From Ruminiclostridium sp. (lineage in GTDB: Bacteria; Bacillota; Clostridia; Oscillospirales; Ruminococcaceae), in the NCBI GenBank assembly GCA_017635675.1, contig JAGBLA010000201.1:1-41932 (forward strand): a DNA stretch of 41,932 bases, written 5' to 3'. Made by a program: the position numbers and the translations under genes. Below, piece after piece: positions 38,368 to 41,747 of this stretch (the stretch's first letter is position 1; the number at the start of each line of letters is the position of its first letter). The notes beneath the pieces are model-generated. The model had not been told where the DNA came from, searched no databases, and saw only the letters and a program-made list of their open reading frames with translations.

Positions 38368-38437
38368 CATATCGCTGCGCCAGTTGTCGATTGTAATGTA
38401 TAAGTCGGCCCCGGTGAAAAAAGATTTCGGAAATGTC

Positions 38438-38467
38438 TTGACAAGCCGGTGATCGGTGTGCTATAAT
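38438..38467 (+). promoter_or_regulatory. Strong promoter in the galK-island gap
   Basis: Perfect TTGACA (38438-38443), 18-base spacer, perfect TATAAT (38462-38467). Transcription should begin near 38474. The next plausible protein start is 39220, so the transcript begins in non-coding DNA. Confidence 0.85.
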
Positions 38468-38473
38468 GTAGGC

Positions 38474-38934
38474 AGTGGTGAAGAGCAAACAAAATATTTA
38501 AGGCAAGGAATGTCTAAAAACCATTCAAAAGCCTGTCAAGAATAATTTGTTTGCAATTTAAAAAAATTTTTTAAAAATTTTCACCAAAAAAGCTAAAGTT
38601 TTCGATTTTTCTGCCGATATAATTTTAGTGAGCAGAACGGAGAATAACTCCGCGGAAACAAAAGCTCTTATCTGTCGCTTGATGCACCGGTTTCCCGGGT
38701 AAGACATTTAAGTAAGACTAATTGTAAACAAATTTAAAATCAGGAGGTAAACAGCACTGGCACAAAATCTATAAGGATCAATGAGATGATGCGGTGAAAA
38801 GCGCATCAAAATAGAGTTACCGGATTATTTACGGGATAGCTATGCAATTTTGACGATCCGAATAGATAGTGACTGACAGCTGTTTACAACAGTTGAATTT
38901 AGTTTTTGTTTACAATTAGTCTTTTTTGTTTTTT
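38474..38934 (+). ncRNA. Candidate structured non-coding RNA, about 460 nt
   Basis: I see a complete transcription unit without a convincing gene. A strong promoter comes first. Next are a 5' nested hairpin (38485-38554) and an A/T tract (about 38557-38580). A 210-nt rod is closed by a perfect 19-bp stem (38714-38732 with 38905-38923). Inside it are a 9-bp stem (38747-38755 with 38879-38887) and a 5+5-bp stem (38768-38779 with 38855-38866). Two inner hairpins follow (38788-38807, and about 38807-38854), giving a three-way junction. The closing stem runs straight into a T-rich tract (38921-38934), as an intrinsic terminator would. It matches none of the RNA classes I know (see rejected list). 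Existence of the RNA is inferred. Confidence 0.55.
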
Positions 38935-38943
38935 ATAAAACCC

Positions 38944-39170
38944 GTCCCGGCGGTTTCCCGGGACAAAGCTCCTTTACAATTGAAGCGCTTGCGGAAAGCG
39001 CGTCCGCCGTGAGGCGGTAAACCTGCCTTGAACAGCAAGTCCGCCGCTCGCAGCAAAGCGTCAGGGGGGAGGCTCCCCGCTGCGGTTCCCACAGGTGAGC
39101 CATAAGGGCAGTGCCCCGGAATGAAACCGCGTAATAGTTACGTCGGTCAAGCTTCCGGATCCGACCTGTA
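38944..39170 (+). promoter_or_regulatory. Hairpin-rich leader before the 238-aa gene
   Basis: At least six stems lie in a row: 38944-38964 (7 bp), 38985-39001 (6 bp), 39004-39017 (5 bp), 39049-39084 (6 bp enclosing a GGGGA/TCCCC hairpin), 39106-39116 (4 bp), and 39126-39147 (9 bp with one bulge). An alternative stem (39142-39146 with 39161-39165) competes with the last one. No known riboswitch core was recognised. The only promoter candidate just upstream (TTTACA-19-TATAAA, 38909-38939) is weak. Confidence 0.5.
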
Positions 39171-39219
39171 ACATTATAAAGAGATAAGAAACGCTGTTGA
39201 ATAAGAAAGGAGAAAACCT

Positions 39220-39936
39220 ATGACTAAGACTAACACCGTTCGCTCCGAGTTCGTGCTTGTTATCACCGGCTCCGCAAATAACGATACTGTGGCGGAGAGG
39301 GTCGCCGCCGGAGTTGCCGGTATCGTTCACCACAAGCTCACTTATGTTCCTGTTTATGGTGAGTTCGATCAGATCCGCAAGCTCCAGCTCAAGGTCAGGC
39401 GTTCTCCCTATGCCATGGGCAGGAGGATCTGCGCGGCGATAGACATCTCCGAATGGATAGGACATGAGGAGGAGGATTACTTCGTCGCCGCCGTTAAGTA
39501 TTTCCACGACCACAGCGACCGCATGAGCTACGTATTCACGGCAGGTGAGGGAAAAAAGACGGAGCTTAAGAAAATGTACGTTATGCTTCGTACATATATG
39601 CATGGAACGATGAGCATCGACGAGACTTTTATGAACGTAGAAGCGCTTGCGAAGTACATCGAGTCCCGCTCCGCCGAAAGCGACGCGGCTATGCTGCTTG
39701 CGGAGGTGCTTATGAGGGACGAAATGAAGTCTCTCAGAACGTACCCGGTGATAAAGAGTATCTGCTCCGACATATCCGAGCTCAGCTCCGCGGATAAGAT
39801 AAGTGTCGATGATGTCAAAACTTATCTTTCCTCCGAAAACTCGCTCATGTACCTTATTAATGAGAACCTCTCTCTCGAATACGCGAAGAGGACAGAAAAG
39901 GATACCGGAAAAACAGGCAGCAGCGATGCTGCCTGA
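39220..39936 (+). CDS. Unrecognised 238-aa protein coupled to a VirD4-like gene
   Basis: I do not recognise a named family. The N-terminus reads RSEFVLVITGSANNDTVAERVA, which is placed like a P-loop after a beta-strand but lacks the Lys. The middle holds AAIDISEWIGHEEEDYF followed by MSYVFTAGEGKK, and the last third is helical (about 145-235), as in the lid of AAA+ ATPases. A degenerate AAA+-like fold is possible but unproven. No membrane segment is visible. AAAGGAG lies 8 bases before the ATG. The end of the gene contains a GC-rich hairpin (39916-39933) overlapping its last codons, and the VirD4-like gene starts 20 bases later, so the two form an operon. Confidence 0.8.
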   Translation: MTKTNTVRSEFVLVITGSANNDTVAERVAAGVAGIVHHKLTYVPVYGEFDQIRKLQLKVRRSPYAMGRRICAAIDISEWIGHEEEDYFVAAVKYFHDHSDRMSYVFTAGEGKKTELKKMYVMLRTYMHGTMSIDETFMNVEALAKYIESRSAESDAAMLLAEVLMRDEMKSLRTYPVIKSICSDISELSSADKISVDDVKTYLSSENSLMYLINENLSLEYAKRTEKDTGKTGSSDAA

Positions 39937-39956
39937 TGTGGGAAAGGAGAAACACT

Positions 39957-41747
39957 ATGAACAGCTTTGATTATGTTTCCGACTGGTCGGAGTACGCTTA
40001 CCCCGAGACCAACGACATCACCTTTGAGAGCACTATCAAGAGCGTGTACCGCAAGGTCGATCTCAGAGCGAAGAAGTTTGCCGCGGGCGGTATCCCCATT
40101 CTTGTCAAGGACAATATCGCGTACCTCAACGATGCCGATCAGAACACGCTCATTTTCGGTCAGACCGGATCGAAGAAGACGAGAACTACTATCGGACCTA
40201 TGATCATTATGGCAGCAGGCGCGGGTGAGTCCTCGTTCGTTACCGATGTCAAGGGTGAGCTTAGCTCCAACCCGAAGATCATGGGATTCCTCGCAGACCA
40301 CGGCGTAAATACAGTGCTTATCGACTTCCGCACGTTCGACCAGGACGGCTTCAATATCCTTGAACACGCGTACAAACAGTATAAGGCGGGAAACAAGGAG
40401 AAGGCTATGGCGGAATGTGCGGTACTGCTGAATATGCTCGGCTTAAAGTATGAGCGCGGAGCGAAGGATCCGTTCTGGCACGGCAATGCGAAGCAGTACC
40501 TCAGACCGCTTCTGGAAATGGTGTTCCGCATGGGTGTTGAGACAGGGTGCGACGAGAAAGTAAATCTCCTTTCTCTCAGCAGTCTGTCGAACCGCTCAAC
40601 ATCGGATGTTATCGGAGGTATTTTCAGGCAGACACCGGAAGTATTCTTTGAAAAGCTCATGCCCAACAATGTTGCTTCCCTCCGTACAGTGGTGGATAAC
40701 CCTCCGAATACAATGGCAAATATCCTTTCCACCGTACAGACGATGCTTGAGGAGTTCACTCTTCAGCCGGATCTTACGAGAATGCTCTCCAAGACCACGT
40801 TCGATGTCGCAAGTATGTACGAGAAGCCGACCTGTGTGTTCCTTATAGTTCCCGATGAAACATCGGCGTATGATGCCACGGCGGGTATGCTTATCGATAA
40901 CTTTTACAACACACTTGTCGAAACATACGGGAAACAGTACATGAACAAGCATGAGCCGAAATGCCGGATCAATTTCATCTGCGACGAGTTCTGCAACCTT
41001 TCTGTGAACGATATGAAGGCTAAGATCTCCGCGAGCCGCGGCAGAGCGATGCGCTGGTACCTTGTATGTCAGTCGCTCAATCAGCTGGAAACTACATACG
41101 GCTCGGCAGCGGGCACTATCATCGGCAACTGTCAGAACACGCTGTTCCTCCAGAGCTGTGATGAGAGCCTGCTTGATTACATCTGCCGTCTCTGCGGGAC
41201 AACGGAGATCAGCCGTTCCGGAAGTGAGCGCCTTGTCACTCCCGAAATGTTAAAATCTCTGCGCAAGGAGAGATTGTACAAGGAAGCGCTTTATATCAAC
41301 GAGCAGGTGCATTTCTTTGCAAAGCTTCCCGATATTGACAGCTACGATTTTCTGAATAAGTACAATTCTCGGACAAACCGCGGATGCAGCTCCGGAAAGA
41401 ATAATTTCGGTGATCTTTCGGAGTTTAATGTCAATGACATCAGATCGGTGTTCTCGTTATCTGAAAAAACGCAGCTTGATTTTGACGACTTTGATTACTA
41501 TGAAGCCGAAGAAGAAGACTGTGACGATGAAGATTATGAGCAGCCCTGCGACGATGAAGAAGATCTCTTCGCAGACCGGTATGATTATGAAGACTATGAG
41601 CCCATAGATCTGTTCGATGACGAGGACGACGACGACAACGATGGGCTTGTTGAGTCTGACTGCGGCTGGTTCGACGGCAGCGAGTCTGATGATGACAACT
41701 CTGATGACAACTCTGATGACAACTCTGATGACAACTCTGACGAGTGA
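39957..41747 (+). CDS. VirD4/TraG-like coupling ATPase, soluble, with acidic repeat tail
   Basis: The 596-aa protein has the core of type IV secretion coupling proteins. Walker A is GQTGSKKT at 68-75, followed by the strand-and-loop SSFVTDVKGELSS. Walker B is FICDEFCNL near 340-348, and the SASRGRAMRWYLVCQSLNQLE and IIGNCQNTLFLQ motifs follow. Two things are odd. Walker A has Lys73 where Gly normally precedes the catalytic Lys. No membrane helix precedes the ATPase, although VirD4 proteins usually have one or two. The last 90 or so residues are extremely Asp/Glu-rich and end in four DDNS repeats. AAAGGAG precedes the ATG. No relaxase or mating-pore gene is in the window. Confidence 0.85.
   Translation: MNSFDYVSDWSEYAYPETNDITFESTIKSVYRKVDLRAKKFAAGGIPILVKDNIAYLNDADQNTLIFGQTGSKKTRTTIGPMIIMAAGAGESSFVTDVKGELSSNPKIMGFLADHGVNTVLIDFRTFDQDGFNILEHAYKQYKAGNKEKAMAECAVLLNMLGLKYERGAKDPFWHGNAKQYLRPLLEMVFRMGVETGCDEKVNLLSLSSLSNRSTSDVIGGIFRQTPEVFFEKLMPNNVASLRTVVDNPPNTMANILSTVQTMLEEFTLQPDLTRMLSKTTFDVASMYEKPTCVFLIVPDETSAYDATAGMLIDNFYNTLVETYGKQYMNKHEPKCRINFICDEFCNLSVNDMKAKISASRGRAMRWYLVCQSLNQLETTYGSAAGTIIGNCQNTLFLQSCDESLLDYICRLCGTTEISRSGSERLVTPEMLKSLRKERLYKEALYINEQVHFFAKLPDIDSYDFLNKYNSRTNRGCSSGKNNFGDLSEFNVNDIRSVFSLSEKTQLDFDDFDYYEAEEEDCDDEDYEQPCDDEEDLFADRYDYEDYEPIDLFDDEDDDDNDGLVESDCGWFDGSESDDDNSDDNSDDNSDDNSDE
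41691..41738 (+). repeat. 12-bp tandem repeat, four copies, in the VirD4-like gene
   Basis: Four identical copies of GATGACAACTCT encode DDNS repeats at the acidic C-terminus. The unit keeps the frame, so copy number can vary by slippage without breaking the gene. Confidence 0.95.

Follow-up and report, generated by a model that had tools for sequence, protein, structure and literature searches.

A candidate sigma-28-dependent small RNA gene upstream of a VirD4-like operon in Ruminiclostridium

Layout of the locus

The window, a 41.9-kb stretch of DNA, is taken from a draft assembly that totals 2.86 Mb over 223 contigs. A gap of 910 bp separates the end of a galactokinase gene (38309) from the start of a gene for a 238-aa protein (39220). 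The genes 5' of the gap are chromosomal, with histidine synthesis followed by a galactan-type sugar locus (GH53, ABC transporter, LacI regulator, and GH2). On the 3' side, the 238-aa gene is followed by a VirD4-like gene, and the contig ends 185 bases past the latter. Within the gap, a housekeeping promoter, a 5' hairpin, a predicted sigma-28 promoter, a long rod, a T tract, and a GC-rich leader follow one another in this order. The features are listed below, with identical alignment columns counted between the window and its single relative (genome G038).

38438..38467, + strand: housekeeping (sigma-A type) promoter, TTGACA-18-TATAAT, with TG 5' of the -10 element; 12/12 consensus positions
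38485..38554, + strand: nested 5' hairpin, arms 38485-38498 and 38541-38554; 3' arm AATAATTTGTTTGC
38592..38619, + strand: predicted sigma-28 (FliA/SigD-type) promoter, GCTAAAGTTTTCGATTTTTCTGCCGATA
38628..38713, + strand: presumed 5' part of the sigma-28 transcript, with a small CGGAG/CTCCG hairpin
38714..38755, + strand: outer rod, 5' side, conserved; 19-bp arm, then AGGAGGTAAACAG; 36/45 columns identical
38756..38876, + strand: rod interior, variable; 54/144 columns identical (38%)
38877..38923, + strand: outer rod, 3' side, conserved; CTGTTTAcaacagTTGAA, then 19-nt arm; 40/50 columns identical
38922..38934, + strand: T tract (T6 G T6) abutting the outer stem; likely intrinsic terminator
38941..39181, + strand: GC-rich structured leader of the 238-aa gene; 204/263 columns identical
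38969..38975, + strand: CTCCTTT, able to pair with the ribosome-binding site AAAGGAG (39206-39212)
39220..39936, + strand: 238-aa protein gene, first of the downstream operon, without recognised family
39936..41747, + strand: VirD4/TraG-like coupling ATPase (PF02534, 6.7e-28)

An earlier note on this DNA had described a consensus promoter, a nested 5' hairpin, and a branched rod ending in a T tract. The promoter (all 12 consensus positions at 38438-38467), the hairpin with both its arms, the rod with 19-bp ends, and the T tract were all found; the three-way junction that it placed inside the rod was not supported. At the equivalent position, G038 carries TTGACA-17-TAAAAT. The 3' arm of the hairpin is identical in 14 of 14 columns between the two genomes, and its loop in 23 of 44.

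The coding capacity of the unit is small. Forward-strand open reading frames of at least 20 aa overlapping 38474-38934 have 29, 24, and 28 codons, and the longest reverse-strand frame contained in this interval has 49. A long open reading frame is thus absent, as expected of a sigma-28-dependent small RNA. A short frame following AGGAGG was dropped, as it ran for only a few codons by eye. A search of the window against the 4227 families of Rfam 15, a check that the earlier note had proposed, gave no matches at the gathering threshold. Relaxing the limit to E 10 gave four matches at the locus, all sub-threshold (best E 2.6) and none convincing. No match to 38430-39215 was detected by blast among plasmids and phages, and exact-pattern scans of IMG/VR did not find the rod.

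The rod and its terminator-like end

The rod spans 38714-38923 (210 nt) and is closed by perfect 19-bp arms (38714-38732 and 38905-38923) centred on 38818.5. When 38474-38934 was shuffled 200 times with dinucleotides preserved, perfect inverted repeats reached a length of 14 at most. The fold of these 461 nt had a z of -8.2, with none of 100 shuffles equally stable, and the rod itself reached -8.8 (0 of 200 shuffles). For the G038 rod, the value was -5.4 (0 of 200), and the consensus structure of the whole rod gave -8.6, with none of 300 column shuffles as good. Given arms of 19 bp against at most 14 in shuffles and a z of -8.8, the statement in the earlier note that such order is hard to explain by chance holds for the rod.

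The same cannot be said of the interior. Its consensus structure (alignment columns 48-193) had a z of -0.9, and 51 of 300 column shuffles were as good. The minimum-energy fold of the rod has an ensemble frequency of 0.0044, making the predicted junction one among many near-equal folds; the three-way junction was therefore not upheld. The outer rod is 80% identical overall between the window and G038, and its arms are mostly identical, in a comparison of two sequences. With two sequences and an interior lacking a common structure, a new RNA class, as the earlier note had suggested, is not claimable.

At its 3' end, the stable 19-bp stem runs at once into T6GT6, and likewise in G038. The rod end is thus a likely intrinsic terminator as read from the letters, and the earlier proposal of an outer stem that acts as a terminator and is absent from Rfam is supported at that level. 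The stem is AT-rich and has 172 nt between its arms, unlike a textbook terminator with a GC-rich stem and a short loop. A terminator scan, which permits loops of 3-8 only, did not report it.

A predicted sigma-28 promoter between hairpin and rod

The predicted sigma-28 promoter, absent from the earlier note, lies between the 5' hairpin and the rod. Its core is close to CTAAAGTTTT...TCTGCCGATATAAT, common to 14 aligned sequences (the window, G038, and 12 others of the genus), which we take to be the textbook form of FliA/SigD promoters. The columns CTAAAG, TT, and CGATA were invariant across the aligned promoter-like sites. Between the window and G038, 21 of the 28 core columns are identical (75%). 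The stretch from 38620 to 38713 is poorly conserved (49/105 columns). Going by promoter-to-start spacing, transcription would presumably begin at about 38626-38628.

We inspected the open reading frames behind 7 of the 12 other aligned sites and behind five sites of a stricter form, and scanned for protein families ten proteins from nine of the loci behind sigma-28-like sites. Flagellar families scored above the Pfam cut-off at three loci, namely flagellin (L016), FlgK (L011), and FliD (L008). The L002 protein matched DUF5610 below the cut-off, and no Pfam family was found in the remaining six of the ten.

We looked for the strict form, GCTAAAGTTT-N7-10-TCTGCCGATA, in six genomes. It occurred once in the 2.86 Mb of the window's own genome and once in G038, in both cases at the rod RNA. 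Three sites were found in each of G048 and G007, and none in G105 or G021, both of which bear flagellin. A reversed control of the form had no match in any of the six genomes. Flagellin-type genes are present in all six genomes tested, a flgL-like one being the only one found in the window's own.

Using a looser form, we detected a site upstream of flgN-flgK-flgL-fliW, which is followed by csrA, in the window's own genome, although a match also arose in 13 of 200 shuffled versions of the contig. In G038, a looser site lies about 150 bp 5' of a flagellin-domain match (0 of 200 shuffles), and none was found in an 8-kb flagellar stretch. The window contains a single one, at 38593-38619, with matches in 11 of 100 shuffles. 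Judged by sequence, the putative promoter at 38592-38619 resembles the flagellar promoters of the organism and stands directly upstream of the rod RNA, which would place the rod in the flagellar regulon.

Distribution among relatives

The rod was found in a single relative, on contig 1 of G038, among the 70 other genomes of the genus. Both the rod pattern and strong matches to a covariance model were confined to the same 2 of 71 genomes, own included, in a set that holds many incomplete drafts. In each of the two genomes, the rod occurs at one place. Weak model matches were obtained in five genomes (G005, G103, G008, G050, and G043; E 0.03 to 1); those in the first three looked like ordinary hairpins on inspection. 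In a blast search that covered 99 genomes and scored up to six candidates in each, the unit had matches in 35. In 33 of these, only positions 112-211 of the query matched, which comprise an A/T stretch and the sigma-28 promoter and lie outside the rod. Because the blast scoring was limited to six candidates per genome, our claim of rarity rests on the pattern and covariance-model searches. The rod was not found in 69 of the 71 genomes of the genus and so does not belong to flagellar control in general.

In G038, both promoters, the hairpin, the outer rod, the tail, the leader, the 238-aa gene, and the VirD4-like gene occur in the same order. The 5' neighbour differs, being galactokinase in the window and a VWA/TSP3 protein following a sugar ABC transporter in G038. 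Since the downstream genes are kept but the upstream gene is different, the unit belongs with the downstream genes.

The leader and the downstream genes

The leader is a second conserved structured region, likewise absent from the earlier note. Its consensus structure (38937-39222) had a z of -5.1, with 0 of 300 shuffles as good, and the hairpin at 39126-39147 shows two double changes between the window and G038. In the helix of CTCCTTT with AAAGGAG, the outer pair is C-G in the window and U-A in G038, which is one compensated pair. The leader had no Rfam match and might act as a separate cis-regulatory RNA. Pairing between the 5' arm of the rod and the leader was rejected, as shuffled leaders were as good in 91 and 129 of 300 cases.

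For the 238-aa protein, no Pfam family scored above the cut-off, and neither NCBIfam nor PADLOC gave a match. The gene is present at six places in 5 of the 71 genomes of the genus, and in 4 of 391 genomes, own included, from a wider draw of the class. At the seven places other than those in the window and G038, the covariance model found no rod within about 1.5 kb on each side (best score 9.3 bits, E 0.22). The VirD4-like protein matched the NCBIfam VirD4-like CD1115 family at 3.9e-59, below the cut-off (200.7/250 bits). The pair of 238-aa protein and VirD4-like ATPase recurs sparsely (window 39220-41747 and L039-L042).

The VirD4-like ATPase, behind which the window contig ends after 185 bases, is, among the proteins scanned, the sole one of transfer type seen near the locus. 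In G038, it is followed by genes for a TPR protein and for a large protein resembling AAA/FtsH. The latter, encoded shortly 3' of the VirD4-like gene (L044:1317-4811), has 1164 aa with Clp-like AAA, FtsH-like AAA, and peptidase M41 domains. Scans of 7 proteins around the G038 locus and of 20 more from the window revealed no relaxase. A transfer-related RNA, which the earlier note had raised, is thus unlikely, the next genes being those for the 238-aa protein and the VirD4-like ATPase, and a conjugative element is not indicated.

Two other structured or gene-poor stretches were observed before 238-aa genes. In G105, a different structured non-coding stretch (L039:2200-2620, minus strand; fold z -3.6) has two long hairpins and, by eye, promoter-like sites of its own. 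On contig 16 of G048, a long stretch without evident gene (L042:2200-2560, minus strand; z -3.0) contains a 42-nt repeat in two copies, 74% alike and 111 nt apart.

Interpretation

The locus looks like an undescribed small RNA gene. The reading that we favour, by a narrow balance of belief over doubt, is a gene of the flagellar (sigma-28) regulon for a rod-forming RNA of about 305 nt, ended by its own basal helix. We infer that sigma-28 RNA polymerase would start near 38628, past CTAAAG...GCCGATA, during flagellar growth, and that the conserved basal helix and the T tract would stop transcription near 38934. Most of the resulting transcript would fold into the rod. Its working part might be the conserved outer rod, which has a purine-rich internal loop (AGGAGG / CAACAGTTGAA) and would make contact with a protein or a second RNA. 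The housekeeping promoter, about 150 bp upstream, could yield either a short RNA that stops close to the 5' hairpin or a longer one of about 460 nt. The main product would be a stand-alone RNA, and read-through beyond the rod would feed the leader and the 238-aa/VirD4-like operon. The RNA may thereby link motility to the adjoining operon.

In favour of this small RNA are the perfect arms, the fold z, the same order in G038, and the small coding capacity, as well as the fact that the strict sigma-28 form is unique to the rod RNA in both genomes. Against it count the AT-rich stem missed by the terminator scan, the missing strict form in G105 and G021, and the missing looser form in the 8-kb stretch of G038. 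Of the earlier interpretation, the non-coding RNA with a terminator stem was retained, while the transfer-related RNA and the new class were not. The idea of a complete unit read from one consensus promoter likewise gave way, because the sigma-28 promoter between hairpin and rod suggests that a separate transcript is probably the main source of the rod.

A tentative alternative, which we regard as possible but doubtful, is a cis-acting attenuator. Here, the 238-aa/VirD4-like operon would have 38438-39219 as its 5' region and be served by both promoters, with the rod as a conditional terminator and the leader masking the ribosome-binding site to control translation. No sigma-70-type promoter reached the scan threshold on the + strand of the window after 38467 (in G038, one weak site, 9/12, lies within the rod). 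With no such promoter between the rod and the next gene, an attenuator leader fits as well as the small RNA. The RNA, the leader, and both genes also stay linked in two of two genomes while the upstream gene differs, and the leader has its consensus structure with a compensated pair in the ribosome-site helix; nevertheless, the relatives of the operon lack the rod RNA. The 5' hairpin, present in the housekeeping transcript only, would offer a 15-nt partner for the 5' arm of the rod and could loosen the terminator. This pairing of hairpin 3' arm and rod 5' arm amounts to -14.3 kcal/mol but is weaker than that of the rod's own arms (-23.1 kcal/mol), and whichever start is taken, the rod appears in minimum-energy folds as soon as its 3' arm has been transcribed. 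Moreover, a 19-bp helix followed by 12 T's resembles a strong, unconditional stop. A related proposal, which we hold to be unlikely, is a two-promoter RNA switch tying motility to the VirD4-like machine, in which the choice of sigma factor sets whether the rod terminates or admits transcription to the operon. It would build on a housekeeping transcript that carries the rod-pairing 5' hairpin and a sigma-28 transcript that lacks it, with the leader as a second, translational gate. A switch between hairpin arm and rod arm is not favoured by minimum-energy folds computed for the transcript as it grows.

The fold could also be a by-product of a DNA-level element, whose GYAAACA / TGTTTRC words would be protein-binding sites or arms, or of a small mobile inverted-repeat element. 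The 41.9-kb window holds 13 copies of these words, six of them within 38485-38913, and the arms are conserved as sequence beyond pairing. However, the T tract, the promoter order, and the spacing suit a transcript, a recent insertion would not be expected to combine a variable interior with a conserved flanking leader, and no strong model match was found in 69 further genomes of the genus. A miniature inverted-repeat element was rejected, as several genomic copies would be expected and one place was found in each of the two genomes. We consider any such DNA element quite improbable. More improbable again is that a flagellar-regulon RNA titrates CsrA via GGA motifs. Both genomes encode CsrA, the gene adjoining fliW in the window's own genome, and AGGAGG lies in a conserved rod strand, but it sits beside a helix rather than in a hairpin loop. 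This CsrA sponge was rejected, as GGA motifs showed no enrichment (6, compared with 4.9 on average in shuffles, 158 of 500 of which had as many, and 8 compared with 6.1, 100 of 500).

Comparison with known RNAs

As a small RNA under the flagellar sigma factor, the candidate resembles UhpU, MotR, FliX, and FlgO of E. coli, which are sigma-28-dependent (PMC10578931). Those RNAs are UTR-derived, Hfq-binding, and conserved among some Enterobacteriaceae (PMC10578931), whereas the present candidate is intergenic, is predicted to form a long rod, and belongs to Clostridia; the two are set apart here by description. CjNC1 and CjNC4 of Campylobacter are likewise sigma-28-dependent non-coding RNAs (PMC4626219), paralogues with 37/44 nt identical, a length that would probably allow no such rod. 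In Clostridioides difficile, from the same broad bacterial group, SigD, SigB, or sporulation-sigma promoters were predicted 5' of a few non-coding RNA starts (PMC7438776), and the comparison made here covers this promoter prediction. Palindromic, terminator-like candidate RNAs from the human microbiome (PMC8040213, among them examples of 109 and 132 bp) share a palindrome with a stem able to act as a terminator; the present RNA differs from them in its 172-nt gap between arms and its flagellar promoter.

Among the titles listed in our literature searches, none concerned this element, by which absence in print is not proven. The locus would encode either a new, narrowly distributed sigma-28-dependent small RNA or an attenuator through which flagellar control reaches the VirD4-like operon. 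The described sigma-28-dependent small RNAs that we found are from E. coli and Campylobacter; a clear candidate from flagellated Clostridia would add a further large bacterial group to their range. A further Campylobacter paper reportedly deals with sigma-28-dependent small RNAs. The fixed place before the VirD4-like operon offers a testable link from motility to a coupling ATPase with no conjugation partner seen nearby.

Another putative flagellar-regulon transcript with a long untranslated start was observed at L004:1575-1884, where about 300 nt of leader separate a sigma-28 promoter from a 263-aa gene resembling that of L002 (weak DUF5610).
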